Source: a virus
Length of the DNA: 25,818 bases
Virus record (IMG/VR): IMGVR_UViG_3300035643_000220
Span: 1-25,818 of that record
Strand: one strand, 5' to 3'
The position numbers and the translations under genes were made by a program. The notes under the pieces were generated by a model that saw only the letters and a list, made by a program, of their open reading frames with translations, ran no database searches and was not told where the DNA came from. This document shows positions 2,514 to 25,577 of the stretch, one piece after another; positions within the stretch are counted from its first letter, which is position 1, and each line of letters opens with the position of its first letter.

Positions 2514-3011
2514 GTGTTCTTGGCATCTCTAGAGCGTGATCGTGTTCCGCCTGCTCGTCCTATCTCTACTGGATACGTAGACCTTGACAAGCTATTGGGT
2601 GGCGGTTTACCTCCGAACTTGGCAGTAGCGTTAACGTCTCCTGCTTGCAACGAGAGAGATCTACTAGTTAGAGGCTTTCTTGAAACAGGAGCAAGAAATG
2701 GCGAAGTCACATTCTACGTGACGATAGACCCAGGCACCGCAAAGCTTTCTGCAGAAGAGTTTCCCGCAAACTTTCACCTATTCGTATGCAACCCTCAAGC
2801 GGACACAATCGTGGAGGATTTGCCCAATGTTCTCAAGCTCAAGGGAGTGGAAAACCTCACCGACGTTAGCATGGCCTTGACTTCAGCGATCCGCAAACTC
2901 GATCCCTTCGACCAAGGCCGCGAGAAGAATCTGCCTAGGCCTTGTTTCAGACATCCTTCTGCAGCACCATGCGGTTCAAACGAGAAAATGGCTTGCTGGG
3001 CTTATTCCTGA
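2514..3011 (+). CDS. KaiC/RAD55-like domain, N-terminal part of a frameshifted gene
   Basis: Starts at GTG 2514 or more likely TTG 2520, with GGAGAGGTG just upstream. Residues about 15-140 resemble the RecA-fold KaiC/RAD55-like domain of archaeal signalling proteins: TGYVDLDKLLGGGLP, ERDLLVRGFLE, VTFYVTIDPG, HLFVCNPQADT and LKGVENLTDVSMALTSAI. No GxxxxGK(S/T) P-loop is visible, so ATPase activity is doubtful. From about codon 136 (base ~2920) this frame turns into non-protein-like sequence, while the +1 frame continues the domain (ARRICLGLVSDILLQHHAVQ, WLAGLIPELKSAGFTTLGVL) straight into the next entry. The two were therefore one gene. GC content is visibly higher than in the virus genes, as in the downstream part. 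Confidence 0.6.
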   Translation: MFLASLERDRVPPARPISTGYVDLDKLLGGGLPPNLAVALTSPACNERDLLVRGFLETGARNGEVTFYVTIDPGTAKLSAEEFPANFHLFVCNPQADTIVEDLPNVLKLKGVENLTDVSMALTSAIRKLDPFDQGREKNLPRPCFRHPSAAPCGSNEKMACWAYS

Positions 3012-3045
3012 ACTGAAGTCAGCGGGATTCACAACTCTGGGAGTA

Positions 3046-4665
3046 TTGGATTCTCGCATTCACCCTTCAGAGGAGCTCTATGCGATTCTCGGGCTTTTCG
3101 ACGGAGAAATCATCATCTTCGAGAAAGAAGGCGAGAAGGGCGGAGGGAAATACTTGAAGATCAACAAGATGAGCAACCAGAAGTATCTAGAAGACGAGCT
3201 GCCTCTGAAAAGAGAAGAGGAAGTAAAGCCGCAAGGATCGGCGATTGGGCAGGTCGTTCTCGATAAGCATCGGATCGCAGTGTTGCCCTTTGTCAGCATG
3301 AGCCCCGACCCCAACGATGAGTACTTCGCCGACGGCATGACGGAGGAAATCATCTCCACTGTGTCTGGGATCAGCGGGCTCGATGTCATTTCAAGAACCT
3401 CTATCATGCGCTACAAGAAGACAGAGAAGGCAGTGGAGGAGATTGGAAGGGAACTCAAGGCCGGCTCTCTCCTCGAGGGGAGCTTCAGGAAAGCGGGGAA
3501 CAGGATCCGAGTCACCACGCAACTCATCGACGTCGCAGCGGACAGACACCTGTGGGCGCAGAACTACGACAGAAACTTGGACGACATATTCGAGGTCCAG
3601 AGCGACGTGGCGAAGCAAGTTGCGGAGGCTCTGCGAGTCCGGATACTGTCCTCAGAGAAAGAGCGCGTGGAAAAGAAGCCTACGGAGAGCACGGCCGCCT
3701 ACACCCTCTACCTTAGGGGAAGGAGCCTCTGGAACAAGCGAGACCGAGAGAACCTCAAGAAGGCGATGGAATACTTCGAGCTCTCCGTGCACGAGGACCC
3801 TGGCTTCGCCCTCGGCTACGTCGGACAGGCAGACTGCGCAGTCCTGCTCCGAGGCACTTGGGACGTAGACCGAGAAGAGAACCTGGCGAAAGCCAAGGCG
3901 ATGCTGGAGAAGGCCCTGCAGCTCGACCCGGCGCTGGCCGAGGCGCACGCAACCTTGGGAATGGTCTGCTATGATGAGTACGACCTCCGCAGGGCCGAGG
4001 AGGAGTTCAGGAGGGCGATCGAACTGAAGCCGAGCTACGCGACGACCCACCAGTGGTACTCCATTCTCTTGCGCTCAGAGCTGAGGTGGGACGAAGGCCT
4101 GAAGGAGATAGAGAAGGCAGTCGAGCTGGACCCCCTCTCGGGAGTAATCATCCACAACCTCGGGGGATACTACTTGACAAGGAGGGATTTCAGCAAGGCT
4201 GCCGAGAAGCTCAAGATTGCGGTCGAACTGGGGTTTGAGGGCGCTCATTATAGCCTATTCTGGGCCTACGGGATGATGAAGATGTACGACGAGATGGAGA
4301 AGGAAGCGGAGGCCGACGCAAGATTGTGTAGCGCGCGCGACATCTTTCCCCGCATTAGGACCCTTCACGATGTGTCCAGGGCATACTTCAAGGGTGATAA
4401 GGAGACCGTCAGGAGGCTCCTCCCCGAACTTGAGGCCTATCCCAAGGAGACCAGCGCGCTGGCAACCGAAATCGCTGATTTTCATTTCTTCTTGGATGAC
4501 GTCGACAAGGGCTTCGAGTGGCTCGAACGGGCATACTCCAAGAGAGAAAACTATCTTTTGGGCATTCAGTTGGATCGGGATCTGGACGGGGTCCGCACTG
4601 ACCCGAGGTACCTTGACCTGCTGAAGAGACTAGGATTGGACCAGACTGCACATCCGACAAGCTAG
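3046..4665 (+). CDS. TolB-like + TPR protein, C-terminal part of the frameshifted gene
   Basis: 539 residues from TTG 3046, though the frame is open back to about 2886 and continues the KaiC-like domain. Residues 1-60 finish that domain (LYAILGLFDGEIIIFEKE). Residues 75-205 are a TolB-amino-terminal-like (FlgO-like) domain as found next to bacterial adenylate cyclases: RIAVLPFVSMSPDPNDEYFA, DGMTEEII, VISRTS, YLLEGS-type SLLEGSFRKAGNRIRVT and LWAQNYDR. Residues 215-430 are tetratricopeptide repeats (AYTLYLRGR, YFELSVHEDPGFA, LDPALAEAHATLG, LKPSYATTHQWYS, LDPLSGVIIHNLG). It is probably a soluble scaffold or signalling protein, not a virion part. High GC third positions and the unrelated function suggest capture of a host gene, or a host segment inside the window. 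Confidence 0.75.
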   Translation: MDSRIHPSEELYAILGLFDGEIIIFEKEGEKGGGKYLKINKMSNQKYLEDELPLKREEEVKPQGSAIGQVVLDKHRIAVLPFVSMSPDPNDEYFADGMTEEIISTVSGISGLDVISRTSIMRYKKTEKAVEEIGRELKAGSLLEGSFRKAGNRIRVTTQLIDVAADRHLWAQNYDRNLDDIFEVQSDVAKQVAEALRVRILSSEKERVEKKPTESTAAYTLYLRGRSLWNKRDRENLKKAMEYFELSVHEDPGFALGYVGQADCAVLLRGTWDVDREENLAKAKAMLEKALQLDPALAEAHATLGMVCYDEYDLRRAEEEFRRAIELKPSYATTHQWYSILLRSELRWDEGLKEIEKAVELDPLSGVIIHNLGGYYLTRRDFSKAAEKLKIAVELGFEGAHYSLFWAYGMMKMYDEMEKEAEADARLCSARDIFPRIRTLHDVSRAYFKGDKETVRRLLPELEAYPKETSALATEIADFHFFLDDVDKGFEWLERAYSKRENYLLGIQLDRDLDGVRTDPRYLDLLKRLGLDQTAHPTS

Positions 4666-15216: not shown

Positions 15217-16839
15217 TTGGGTCTTGTGCCAGAGAGCTATTATGATTTCGTTATGCATTATGCGCCCTACTTTTACGTGGATCCTACGAGCTTGACTGCG
15301 GACGCAAGCAGCGGTCAGAAGAACGTTACAGTGGCTAACGGCGCCATGTTCCAAGCTGGCTTTCCCGTGCAGATCTATGACAGCAGCAATAGCGAATGGA
15401 ATGTTGTTGGGAGCGTCAATGGCAACGTTGTCACGATGCAGAATAATCTCTCGAATAGCTACAAGGTAGCTCATGGCGGAACGGTTGAGGGACCAGATCC
15501 TAATTATGGGCAAGGCGTGATGGCTGCAGCTTTCGCAATTGACTTTCTCTATCTCGCCTACAGCTCCTCACAATTCAGCGCGGATCAAGCTGCTATTCTC
15601 TCGGAGATCAGTACACTTGCGAACTTTATTCTGTCGCAGCAGTGCACAGACAATACAAAGAGCGCTTACGGTGGCTTTGCAAGTGCTATTGGAAGTATAG
15701 AATATTGGGCTGTTGACGCATGCAGGTGTATTCCAAGCCTTCTGAGGGCTTATTCACTAACGAATAATGCAAACTATCTTAATGCTGCAGTCCTTGCCGG
15801 GAAGACTTTTCTTTATAATATGCAGCGTCTGCCAGTATTCTTTGGTGTGCATGATAAGTATTACGGCGCTTTTGCTCGGTACGTGGATATAAACGGGGAC
15901 TGGAGCCCGTACATGGACGTTGAGTGTCTATATGGCTTAATCGGTTTGTCGATGCTAGCAGAAACTTACGACGTCGGGAATGCAGGAACCTACGATAGCA
16001 TAATGAGCGGTCTTGTGGGCTTCTTAAGGTCCGGTTTTGAGCAGCTCTACATGGACTTTTATCCCCTGCCAACGGGTGATGGGAATTGGCATCGACTAGG
16101 CTCGCCTGAGACGCAGGTTTATGATGATCCTATCGCCTTCGCTATGCTGGGGCTTTATACTTACGAAGGGATGAGTTCAAGCTGCTCCAAAGTTTACGAT
16201 CTGATTCAGAATATCATGGCTTCAGCAGAGTATCCAGCTTACAATCCGTACATCTGCTGGCCAGGCTACATCGACGTTATCGTTCGCTTTCCAGCATGCA
16301 GCTACTATGATGACGTGTCGATCGGCATCTTGGGGCAGATTCGAAAAGTCTATGATAAACCGTCATACTCACTGGAGAATCAGATACTCAGCAGTTATCC
16401 AACACAGTTTCTCTATTGGGACCCTGAATTCACGGATTATAATCCAATAACCGTCCAGAAGGCTATGGCAAACGTCTGCTGGCTCGGAGAGTTCTTCTTC
16501 AATTATGTTGAGCCACAAACGGACTTCACGAAGCTGCTAGGGCTTAACGGTGATGACTTAACTCTCTATCCGATAATAGCAGCTGCTGACGAAGTCTCCT
16601 GGGCGCAGCCGATTAGCCTAATGGGCATGGTAACTATTGGTGCAACAACAGAATTAATCCTTGAGCCTGGCTACATAACGCAGGAGCATATCACAGTTTT
16701 CACGTTCTTACCCGTGCGTGTGCACGACAAGATCCGCTATAGCGGGGTAGATTATGAAGTTATCACAGTCAGCGATTATGATCTGAACGGTTCACCACAG
16801 TTTTACAAGAGTGCTTGTAGGAAGTTGATTACTCAATGA
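15217..16839 (+). CDS. Head-tail stopper fused to a toroidal glycosidase-like domain
   Basis: 540 residues from TTG with GGGAGAG at 15201-15207. Residues 20-92 form a small beta-module (LTADASSGQKNVTVANGAMF, ending in YKVAHGGTVEG). Residues 95-440 are helical and repetitive, as in (alpha/alpha)6 toroids of six-hairpin glycosidases: YGQGVMAAAFAIDFLYLAY, YWAVDACRCIPSLLRAY, YMDVECLYGLIGLSMLAE, VYDDPIAFAMLGLY, YYDDVSIGILGQI. Acidic candidates at the toroid mouth are D228, D234, D303/D304 and D365/D366. Residues 460-540 (PISLMGMVTIGATT, VRVHDKIRYSGVDYEVITVS, FYKSACRKLI) match the beta-barrel of SPP1 gp16-like head-tail stoppers, normally a stand-alone protein of about 100 residues. The enzyme could cut host surface glycans from the neck of the virion; catalysis is inferred, and it could be glycan-binding only. 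Confidence 0.7.
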   Translation: MGLVPESYYDFVMHYAPYFYVDPTSLTADASSGQKNVTVANGAMFQAGFPVQIYDSSNSEWNVVGSVNGNVVTMQNNLSNSYKVAHGGTVEGPDPNYGQGVMAAAFAIDFLYLAYSSSQFSADQAAILSEISTLANFILSQQCTDNTKSAYGGFASAIGSIEYWAVDACRCIPSLLRAYSLTNNANYLNAAVLAGKTFLYNMQRLPVFFGVHDKYYGAFARYVDINGDWSPYMDVECLYGLIGLSMLAETYDVGNAGTYDSIMSGLVGFLRSGFEQLYMDFYPLPTGDGNWHRLGSPETQVYDDPIAFAMLGLYTYEGMSSSCSKVYDLIQNIMASAEYPAYNPYICWPGYIDVIVRFPACSYYDDVSIGILGQIRKVYDKPSYSLENQILSSYPTQFLYWDPEFTDYNPITVQKAMANVCWLGEFFFNYVEPQTDFTKLLGLNGDDLTLYPIIAAADEVSWAQPISLMGMVTIGATTELILEPGYITQEHITVFTFLPVRVHDKIRYSGVDYEVITVSDYDLNGSPQFYKSACRKLITQ

Positions 16840-17819
16840 GCGCTTGCGAAGATCCAGTTACAACAGTTATTCGGATTCTCAGTGATAAGATTGAAGTTAT
16901 CAAAGACGACGGCTCGATCGCTAAAATCTACGTCAGCAAAGAATGGTACGACCGTGAACTTTTCAAGAATTACGATGCTCAGATAAGCATCGGCTTAGCC
17001 CAAAGCCAAGATCAAATGCTGGAGATATCCGGAAACATACGGAGACGCCTCGGAAGACTCAGAGTTAACATCTGGGCAAGTGATAAAACCGGTTCTTCAG
17101 ACACTGGTCGAGAGATCAGGGAGAAAACAGTCGAGCAGGTTAACACCGTCGTTCACCAAAATATGAAAGTCCCGAACATTGCTCTCTACAATTTCTTAGG
17201 TGAAGGCGCCCCTGGAAGCCCGCATAAAGCCTATTCTGCGGCTGCTGCATCTGAGCTGCTTCCGAGCAGCACATCTTGGGCCGAGATCACGTCAGCTCAG
17301 TATGAAGATATCTGGTATGCAGACGGCGAAGACTATGGTTTCAGCACGTCTGTAAATGGCGACTACGCAATGGACCTCTTCTGCTTCCAGCTTGACACTG
17401 AAGCAGATATGCTACAGCAGATCGTCTTAACATTTCTCGGTTACGGCTCTGCCCCGGCTGGTTACGGATGCACGATCAAAGTTTGGAATGTCGTAGATAA
17501 CGCTTGGGAAAGTGCCTCAACAGGATCTGGAAGCGCTAACCAGTATGTCACTATCACGTTAACTTCGAACCTAACAAATTATGTCGACTCTAACGGCCGC
17601 ATCTGGCTTCTGGTCCGGACAACAAACACGAGCAATGGCTCGATTCCAGCAGTGCTCTACTGCGATTATGTGAGCTGCACAGTTACGATTAACGGCATAA
17701 CATACCTTAACGTGATGAGCTACCGTGATATTGATAGGGTTGACGTGAAACCCTTCATCTTCAGAACCGAGTTTTTGCTCACATCATGGTTCTTCGAGAA
17801 CATCGGAGGAACATTCTAA
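16836..17819 (+). CDS. Tail terminator/completion protein with inserted beta-sandwich
   Basis: 327 residues, ATG overlapping the stopper stop (ATGA). Residues 1-120 (PVTTVIRILSDKIEVIKDDG, YDAQISIGLAQSQDQMLEIS, RRLGRLRVNIWA) and the last 35 (YRDIDRVDVKPFIFRTEFLL, SWFFENI) together form a tail-completion domain. Between them residues about 130-287 are a Ser/Thr-rich beta-sandwich: YAMDLFCFQLDTEADMLQQI, GCTIKVWNVVDNAWES, NGRIWLLVRTTN and YCDYVSCTVTI, much like the jelly-roll of archaeal surface and carbohydrate-binding proteins. The usual family length is about 130-170 residues, so the insertion doubles the protein. Gene order (stopper, terminator, tube) supports the call. Confidence 0.65.
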   Translation: MSACEDPVTTVIRILSDKIEVIKDDGSIAKIYVSKEWYDRELFKNYDAQISIGLAQSQDQMLEISGNIRRRLGRLRVNIWASDKTGSSDTGREIREKTVEQVNTVVHQNMKVPNIALYNFLGEGAPGSPHKAYSAAAASELLPSSTSWAEITSAQYEDIWYADGEDYGFSTSVNGDYAMDLFCFQLDTEADMLQQIVLTFLGYGSAPAGYGCTIKVWNVVDNAWESASTGSGSANQYVTITLTSNLTNYVDSNGRIWLLVRTTNTSNGSIPAVLYCDYVSCTVTINGITYLNVMSYRDIDRVDVKPFIFRTEFLLTSWFFENIGGTF

Positions 17820-23886: not shown

Positions 23887-25023
23887 ATGGCTAAGTCAAA
23901 GAGGCTGGAGCGACGGAGAAAGACTGCGGCTGATGATCCTTCTTCGACTAATAACCCATCCTCAACAAGCGTTCAAAAAGCAGGCTGGGCTAACCCAACG
24001 TACGCTTACGCTTTAGATCAGAAATACGCGACGACGAGCACCGCAGCAGCACAGCAGAATTATGGCGGCTACGGGTTTAACATACCTTCAGGTTCAACGA
24101 TAAACCAGCTCATCATCAAAACAGAAGCCTATTCCAACAGTCCGTCAAGCGACATTCTTTACGTTTGGGTTTACGACGGCTCAGTTTGGCACCAGAACAC
24201 TACACCATTGGCTTTGACAACGTCTGAGCAAGAGTTTGATTGGGACATCACCAACCTGATCCAGTGGACTCCTGCCGCAGTGAATAGTATACAGACAAGG
24301 ATCGATTATGAGAACGCTGGAGGATGCTTTCCGCCTGCTGTGGAATGTCTTTGCTTCAGTAAGACGCAAGAGGAGCTTGAGGCGCTTGCTGGCATGCCCG
24401 CTGATTGGACAGACAGGAGCGACTTTTGGAATGCGGTTTTTGCCAAGACGAAAGAATCGGGCGGAGACCTGTTCAAGCTTGTAAGAGTTGATCAATTAAC
24501 CGAGCAGGATACTCTGGTATTCCTGCATGCTCTGGATCCTGAATCGGGTTTGCCCATTGATCGTCCTGAGATCGACCATAAAAAGTGCGAGAAGCGAATA
24601 AGCCTGAAAATCTTCCCCGAGCATCCAAAAGCGGTCGTGAAGCATACCGGAGCTTTCAATCTGATACATGCGTACTTCCCTATTCCGGCGCACCTTCTTC
24701 GAATCTATGCTCAGCATGAAATATTCAGAAGGCTCCTGAACGTTCCAGATCCTATTCCGCCCGAAGGGGTTCTGGCTGATATTTGCATCACAGATAATCA
24801 TCACGTTTGGGTTCGGAACAGAGGAGTAATCACTGCCGGCGAGTTGCAAGTTGGCGAATTGGTCGGCGAGATCGTCTGGGACAACGGCTTCTGGTACACT
24901 GTTCCCTTGCCGATTGTAAGGATTGATGTTGAACCGTGGACAGGCAGCGTTTATGATGTTCAGTTCCCGCACACGCACCACATATTGACGAGGTATCTGA
25001 TTGGGCACCTTTCAAAAAAATAA
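23887..25023 (+). CDS. Jelly-roll tail protein interrupted by a Hint/intein-like segment
   Basis: 378 residues. Residues 30-146 are a beta-sandwich of an archaeal surface type (QNYGGYGFNIPSGSTINQLI, DILYVWVYDGSVW, EFDWDITNLIQWTP, IQTRIDYENAGG). After G146 the sequence changes at C147 (CFPPAVECLCF) to an unrelated 140-residue segment, then Hint-type block B (T302-D-N-H305, WVRNRGVITAGELQVGELVG) and blocks F/G (VYDVQFPHTHHILTRYLIGH, then L375, S376). The missing last strands of the beta-sandwich lie immediately downstream in another frame (25022-25144). This is the layout of an intein inside the protein, with S376 as a possible first C-extein residue, but block A is poorly conserved and the usual terminal Asn is Leu. 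Splicing competence is therefore doubtful. Confidence 0.65.
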   Translation: MAKSKRLERRRKTAADDPSSTNNPSSTSVQKAGWANPTYAYALDQKYATTSTAAAQQNYGGYGFNIPSGSTINQLIIKTEAYSNSPSSDILYVWVYDGSVWHQNTTPLALTTSEQEFDWDITNLIQWTPAAVNSIQTRIDYENAGGCFPPAVECLCFSKTQEELEALAGMPADWTDRSDFWNAVFAKTKESGGDLFKLVRVDQLTEQDTLVFLHALDPESGLPIDRPEIDHKKCEKRISLKIFPEHPKAVVKHTGAFNLIHAYFPIPAHLLRIYAQHEIFRRLLNVPDPIPPEGVLADICITDNHHVWVRNRGVITAGELQVGELVGEIVWDNGFWYTVPLPIVRIDVEPWTGSVYDVQFPHTHHILTRYLIGHLSKK

Positions 25024-25144
25024 GAAGCACAAGACCGTCTACGTGGACTGGATAGGCATCTACGCAAGCTGGACCCCACCAGCAGTAACCGCTCGGGAGC
25101 CTTTCAGCCTCAAGATTGGAGGCATAACAATTTTTACTGCATAG
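25022..25144 (+). pseudogene. Out-of-frame C-terminal end of the jelly-roll protein
   Basis: 40 codons open to TAG 25142-25144 without a start. KKHKTVYVDWIGIYASWTPP is the expected last strand pair of the upstream beta-sandwich, whose relatives commonly end in a VYVDW motif followed by a final strand. The preceding frame stops at TAA 25021-25023 straight after an A7 run (25014-25020). One A fewer in DNA or mRNA, or a +1 slip, would join the two. It could be decay, an assembly error in the homopolymer, or programmed transcriptional slippage. Confidence 0.6.
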
Positions 25145-25163: not shown

Positions 25164-25577
25164 TTGAGTGAAATGTACCAGGACGTGATCGTTGCTAACC
25201 CGAAGGACGTGAAGAAGCGGATCAAGCTTCGCTTTCTGGTTGACACGGGCTGCAGCGGCTGTGCCATCCCGGAGAGTCTTGCGAAACGTTTGCGACTGAA
25301 AGCCATCGGTGAAGGGGACGTTCAGCTTGCGGACGGCTCGATCATTAAGACGAAAGTGGCTTATCTTTACATGTGCATCGGCGGCGAGCACGTGTTCACG
25401 CTCGTCACATTCAACGGGTGCCATCAGCCGCTTCTGGGCTTCGATATCATGGCCATGCTTAGGCTACAGCTTGACCCTCATAACAAGCAAGTGTTGAAGC
25501 CTATTAGGCGGTTCAAGCTGCTCAACTTTGTCCTGCGTAAGGGCTGGATAGGTAGAAACCATGAGCGGGTGGGTTAG
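25164..25577 (+). CDS. Retropepsin-like (clan AA) aspartic protease
   Basis: 137 residues from TTG, with GGAGTGA at 25150-25156 seven bases upstream. FLVDTGCSGCAIPESLAKRL carries the D27-T28-G29 active site, LADGSIIKTKVAYLYM and HVFTLVTFNG are the flap and core strands, and QPLLGFDIMAMLRLQLDP is the second conserved motif (hydrophobic-LG-x-D). These features define a single-lobed protease that works as a homodimer, as retroviral proteases do. The C-terminal tail is basic. In a virus tail module it could process a tail or lysis protein, but the target is unknown. Overlaps the next gene by 17 bases. Confidence 0.8.
   Translation: MSEMYQDVIVANPKDVKKRIKLRFLVDTGCSGCAIPESLAKRLRLKAIGEGDVQLADGSIIKTKVAYLYMCIGGEHVFTLVTFNGCHQPLLGFDIMAMLRLQLDPHNKQVLKPIRRFKLLNFVLRKGWIGRNHERVG

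Follow-up and report, generated by a model that had tools for sequence, protein, structure and literature searches.

Inteins are usually viewed as mobile passengers obliged to leave their host protein, and viral inteins have been reported in enzymes such as terminase, DNA polymerase, and MCM. The locus described here raises the question of what an intein-like segment is doing inside a beta-sandwich protein of a virus particle. The window, which is the whole stretch of DNA analyzed, comprises the virus record IMGVR_UViG_3300035643_000220 (positions 1 to 25,818; 25,818 bases). The tail genes of the window have matches in many viral contigs, and because the relatives of one tail gene (16836–17819) sit mostly within Bathyarchaeia genomes, the host of this virus is very probably a member of the Bathyarchaeia. 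A large part of the left 6 kb was without coverage by related loci.

The gene in question lies on the plus strand as an ORF of 378 amino acids (23887–25023). Residues 1–146 (23887–24324), which share 45% identity with the homologue in genome G127, end in ...RIDYENAGG, and the stretch from about residue 30 to residue 146 is a widespread kind of beta-sandwich, interrupted directly after G146. The inserted segment (C147–L375; 24325–25011) opens with a cysteine codon at 24325, the position of an intein Cys1, and contains a block B (DICITDNHHVWVRNRGVITAGELQVGELV; 24778–24864) with the motif TDNH (T302 to H305; 24790–24801) and blocks F/G (VYDVQFPHTHHILTRYLIGHL, VYDV...IGHL; 24949–25011) that align with the ends of archaeal MCM and SMC mini-inteins (VYDLYVPTFHNFIAEGIVVHN). 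An A7 run follows (25014–25020), at which the frames of the two host halves differ, and a TAA stop at 25021–25023 ends the ORF. The last sandwich strand and C-terminus (KKHKTVYVDWIGIYASWTPP...FTA) continue in the +1 frame, where KKHKTVYVDWIGIYASW... runs from 25022 to a stop at 25144; this frame opens no earlier than 25001 and lacks a convincing start codon. An earlier note on this DNA had described the ORF, C147, TDNH, the F/G blocks, the A7 run, and the VYVDW strand, and its coordinates and reading were correct on recheck, as was its description of block A as weak, which in the window amounts to Cys147 and a CFP...LC pattern only. The place of the gene among structural genes in the window, in a related viral contig (L108), and in proviruses suggests that the product is a particle protein, which may lie on the particle surface.

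Against a profile built from four uninterrupted Bathyarchaeia relatives (L083, L086, L087, and L088), residues 1–146 alone scored 83.7 bits and rose to 94.7 bits when joined to 25022–25141, a gain of 11 bits that none of 500 shuffled C-ends equaled (best 91.7). Because the score rises on joining and no shuffle reaches it, the window sandwich is taken to be broken directly behind G146 and is completed beyond the insert. The homologous sandwich of the provirus-like loci rose from 80.1 to 93.4 bits with its last strand (0 of 500 shuffles), and the L108 sandwich gained less (39.6 to 46.6 bits; best shuffle 47.7). The last strand of the window also matches KTWYVDWLPVRVTY of the provirus homologue. 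All four uninterrupted relatives run straight through the site, for example as KKSGG-ADSVSLDWIPVEVTY and ...TQVVHKKSGG-ADSVSLDWIPVEVTYS; the earlier note had named relatives that lack the segment yet fail to join there as the finding that would count against it. This outcome favors the note, whose picture of a virion beta-sandwich split by a Hint-type segment, with the last strand behind it and out of frame at A7, is supported. In a second archaeal phylum that was searched, only uninterrupted sandwiches were found.

The identity of the insert is carried by its second half. A profile was built from five archaeal mini-inteins (one in RadA, two in SMC, and two in MCM) that come from genomes belonging to the same phylum. 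On this profile the whole insert scored 21.1 bits, and the last 90 residues of the insert, which hold the B–F/G half, 24.0 bits, relative to a best of 5.1 bits among 1000 shuffles and 5.5 bits for the best other frame of the window. The same half aligned with the provirus homologue at z = 9.0 and with one SMC mini-intein at z = 9.2, the provirus insert reached 26.2 bits on the mini-intein profile (best shuffle 11.2), and a profile-profile comparison over blocks B to F returned a probability of 95.9 (E 5e-9). When a four-member profile of the insert family was run over 398 genomes, the Hint region matched at four places only, all of them inteins in SMC and MCM genes. Blocks B to F/G of the insert can be regarded as a genuine Hint domain on these comparisons. 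Residues 148–297 are not recognizably Hint, and the A–B part compared with the provirus Hint at z = 0.5. The distance from Cys1 to block B is 155 residues in the window, and this is less odd than it first appears because the mini-inteins used for the profile, which have no endonuclease, already reach about 85–105 residues, as counted on printed sequences.

Standard searches were less informative. Searches of Pfam, NCBIfam, PHROGs, and PDB sequences and a phage and plasmid tblastn, all with the window ORF as query, yielded no usable match, no homing endonuclease family was found in the insert with Pfam and NCBIfam, and the same two collections missed the provirus and L108 proteins. Curated intein models did not detect the insert. 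Fold prediction with AlphaFold2, for which the frame-broken protein was read through the break once, used two sequences only and gave no usable model (mean pLDDT 28.6 and 30.7). Scans of viral sequences with the window protein alone returned no relative; a cyanophage match to the ORF (E 0.8) and a match at L095 on the opposite strand of another gene were taken as chance.

Inserts at the same site were found elsewhere, so that the family consists of four sequences in three lineages: the window, a provirus-like pair, and L108. Two Bathyarchaeia provirus-like loci (L084 and L085, in G127 and G128; 92% identical) encode a 355-amino-acid sandwich protein in which a complete Hint begins with CYPKETFLLCVD at this site and is followed by the last strand without a change of frame. 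The gene lies behind those for a cement protein, an HK97-type capsid, and a portal. The viral contig L108, from a sister virus, whose terminase and portal match those of the window at about 62–76% (main tblastx segments), encodes a 383-amino-acid protein with a 210-residue insert at the same site and in frame. By eye this insert has Hint-like features (ENGKRILKSIGDVKVGDEVL), but its scores on the Hint tests (2.5–3.5 bits, with shuffles up to 10.3) are not significant, and similarity to the Hint superfamily over blocks B and F was found for the window and the provirus pair and not for L108. It is counted here as a same-site insert and is not proven as a Hint. A degenerate family pattern run over viral contigs recovered only the L108 contig again, and an upstream gene as a conserved partner had sequence support for L085 and L108 only (E 3e-4).

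With relatives available, the break at A7 can be considered separately from the insert. An error of sequencing or assembly at A7, with the viral protein in fact intact, could well be the cause of the break, although we give this slightly less than even weight; it would concern the break alone and is compatible with the other readings discussed below. The homopolymer position and the in-frame relatives favor an error, as does a second one-base frame disruption near 2905–2925, in a gene that we take to be KaiC-like (2514–4665) and whose downstream half is read in a different frame and leads into a TPR protein ORF at 3046. Conversely, where homologues cover the viral coding sequence (about 13.9 kb), the sense strand switches frame nowhere else, and this speaks against sequence of generally poor quality in the window. 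Because the KaiC-like gene is likewise disrupted by a single base, error and real loss are both plausible.

The residues used in class 1 splicing are only partly present in these inserts. Cysteine occupies position 1 in the window and, by alignment, in the provirus pair, and is uncertain in L108; block B carries TDNH in the window and TPNH in the pair, while L108 has Gln in place of His. Cys1 and TxxH have thus been kept in window and provirus copies that share only about 29–35% identity. At the other end, no terminal Asn, Gln, or Asp precedes a Cys, Ser, or Thr in the inserts of the window, the provirus pair, or L108. Leu375 holds the place of the class 1 intein Asn, with Ser following (HL|S where HN|S is expected), as the earlier note had it. 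Because no insert ends in Asn, Gln, or Asp ahead of a nucleophile, class 1 splicing of these inserts is not expected. In intein chemistry, Cys1 and TxxH without the last residue leave an N-S acyl shift possible and remove C-terminal cleavage, and a self-cleavage or thioester at the N-side of the window and provirus copies is plausible.

Selection on the Hint was estimated from one pair of related genomes (L084 and L085) and speaks for the provirus lineage only, where dN was 0.031 and dS 0.377 (dN/dS 0.08; bootstrap 0.04–0.16), comparable to about 0.09 for the host N-terminal part. The pair differ by 31 synonymous and 13 non-synonymous codons and by no change in length. The most constrained part is block B–F (dN/dS 0.03) and the least constrained is the stretch past block F (0.22, with a wide interval). 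The provirus Hint is under purifying selection, as expected of a working, permanently included domain.

Because the site is shared and in frame, the C-terminal HN is missing, and the provirus pair is under purifying selection, our leading explanation, held tentatively and at somewhat less than an even chance, is that an intein-derived Hint domain has been fixed as a permanent, non-splicing domain and, where Cys1 and TxxH are kept, performs the N-side step only. In some Bathyarchaeia viruses and proviruses, the Hint would have become a fixture of the loop that precedes the final strand of the virion beta-sandwich and, without the C-terminal Asn needed for splicing, would stay in the protein. 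As in Hedgehog-type Hint domains, the bond before Cys1 in the window and provirus copies would rearrange into a thioester, to be subsequently cleaved or passed to a nucleophile. This would leave a nick immediately ahead of the protein's last strand, and that strand might remain bound in the sandwich and keep the pieces together; if the window sequence is right, the A7 break would yield a product without that strand. From the presence of Cys1 and TxxH onward, we infer each of these steps, the absence of splicing included. The suggestion in the earlier note that the Hint serves another purpose comes close to this explanation, apart from its slippage-controlled display, which lacks positive support. 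The further proposal of a virion surface protein with a domesticated Hint, in which a thioester at, or a cut of, the bond before the last strand makes the particle protein nicked or covalently reactive, is in our estimate unlikely. In adhesion receptors, self-cleavage of the GAIN domain likewise takes place immediately ahead of the final strand of a beta-sandwich, and the sandwich stays assembled. The proposed nick would resemble it if the mechanism is right; no homology is claimed, the chemistry differs, and the GAIN domain holds no inserted domain. Should the explanation hold, viruses of uncultured archaea would have made a working domain of an intein that has no exit chemistry and is kept by selection at one fixed place in a particle protein.

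The main rival, which we consider somewhat unlikely, is that the insert is fixed but chemically inert, with the Hint fold serving as a structural or host-binding elaboration and no bond being cut. It is the strongest rival because a structural use of the insert may occur in one lineage or more, as suggested by the in-frame L108 insert, in which the block B His is missing. N-side chemistry cannot be general across the family for the related reason that the L108 insert lacks this residue and is not statistically Hint. Purifying selection would look the same for an inert domain, and Asn is missing from every member. An inert role sits poorly with the conservation of Cys1 and TxxH across the divergent window and provirus copies and with the concentration of constraint in block B–F.

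An ordinary intein in decay, which homed to the site, lost splicing separately in each lineage, and is on its way out, A7 break included, is decidedly improbable. The window by itself would fit such a history, through its HL|S in place of HN|S, its poor block A, and its broken frame, and inteins of a given host protein typically occupy the same insertion sites. However, two in-frame lineages without HN and the low dN/dS of the provirus Hint speak against decay, and no HN-ending copy was found at the site in 257 Bathyarchaeia genomes, 398 genomes of the phylum, or viral contigs. The decaying intein offered by the earlier note is consequently set aside as the main reading, given same-site, in-frame inserts in two provirus-like loci and L108 that always lack HN. 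Splicing by an unusual route, or a programmed slip at A7 that makes the full protein, can draw on the penultimate His, the following Ser, and a plausibly slippery run but is very improbable, as no member ends in Asn, Gln, or Asp, the relatives read through in one frame and need no shift, and downstream RNA structure at A7 is no better than chance (z −0.43), with no recoding signal seen.

Among known systems, the closest are the archaeal class 1 mini-inteins of SMC, MCM, and RadA, which share block B, blocks F/G, Cys1, the lack of an endonuclease, and a wide spacing between Cys1 and block B. Their terminal HN precedes Cys, Ser, or Thr, whereas the window has Leu and the other inserts have Ala- or Ser-like residues; these mini-inteins also sit in conserved enzyme motifs rather than in a virion beta-sandwich. 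The Hint of Hedgehog proteins uses the N-side first step only (PMC7664689, PMC7765530), and its C-terminal (Hog) form likewise retains Cys1 and block B without a C-terminal Asn, so that only an N-side step would be possible (PMC7664689). Hog is C-terminal and carries a sterol-recognition region, unlike the nested insert here, behind which a host strand follows in L085 and L108. Bacterial intein-like (BIL) domains, which mainly cleave, are also Hint domains outside housekeeping enzymes (PMC7664689, PMC7765530), and the location of the insert outside conserved enzymes fits them; BIL domains are described without a +1 nucleophile, whereas the present inserts have lost the terminal residue and occupy a fixed site within the sandwich. 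One survey of Bathyarchaeia viruses, within the open-access literature consulted, does not mention inteins.

Several observations concern the surroundings of the gene. Residues 41–107 of the sandwich ORF have weak similarity to the window's own tail protein (16836–17819), in which residues 143–291 form a domain that bears a weak resemblance to this sandwich (E about 0.02 for 1000 sequences); the profile of this tail protein made a poor test of the sandwich join, as it gains nothing from the last strand. The segment directly downstream of the sandwich gene (25164–25577) encodes a small aspartyl protease that is retropepsin-like (PF13650, E 1.9e-9). This enzyme may process particle proteins and was not found in the related viral loci. 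In G127 and G128 (L097 and L098), the cement protein, HK97-type capsid, portal, and sandwich-Hint genes form a shared conserved island that adjoins a gene for a zinc-dependent phospholipase C; neither a terminase nor tail genes were noticed across the 18–20 kb read, and the island is possibly a domesticated provirus. The sandwich-insert gene has moved between genomes, lying between portal and protease in L108 (5089–6237), behind the tail genes in the window (23887–25144), and near the portal in the proviruses. Finally, the viral contig L051 has a major capsid protein 90% identical to that of the window, yet its tail gene matching 16836–17819 is only 55% identical, and the two viruses read as a mosaic of head and tail modules.
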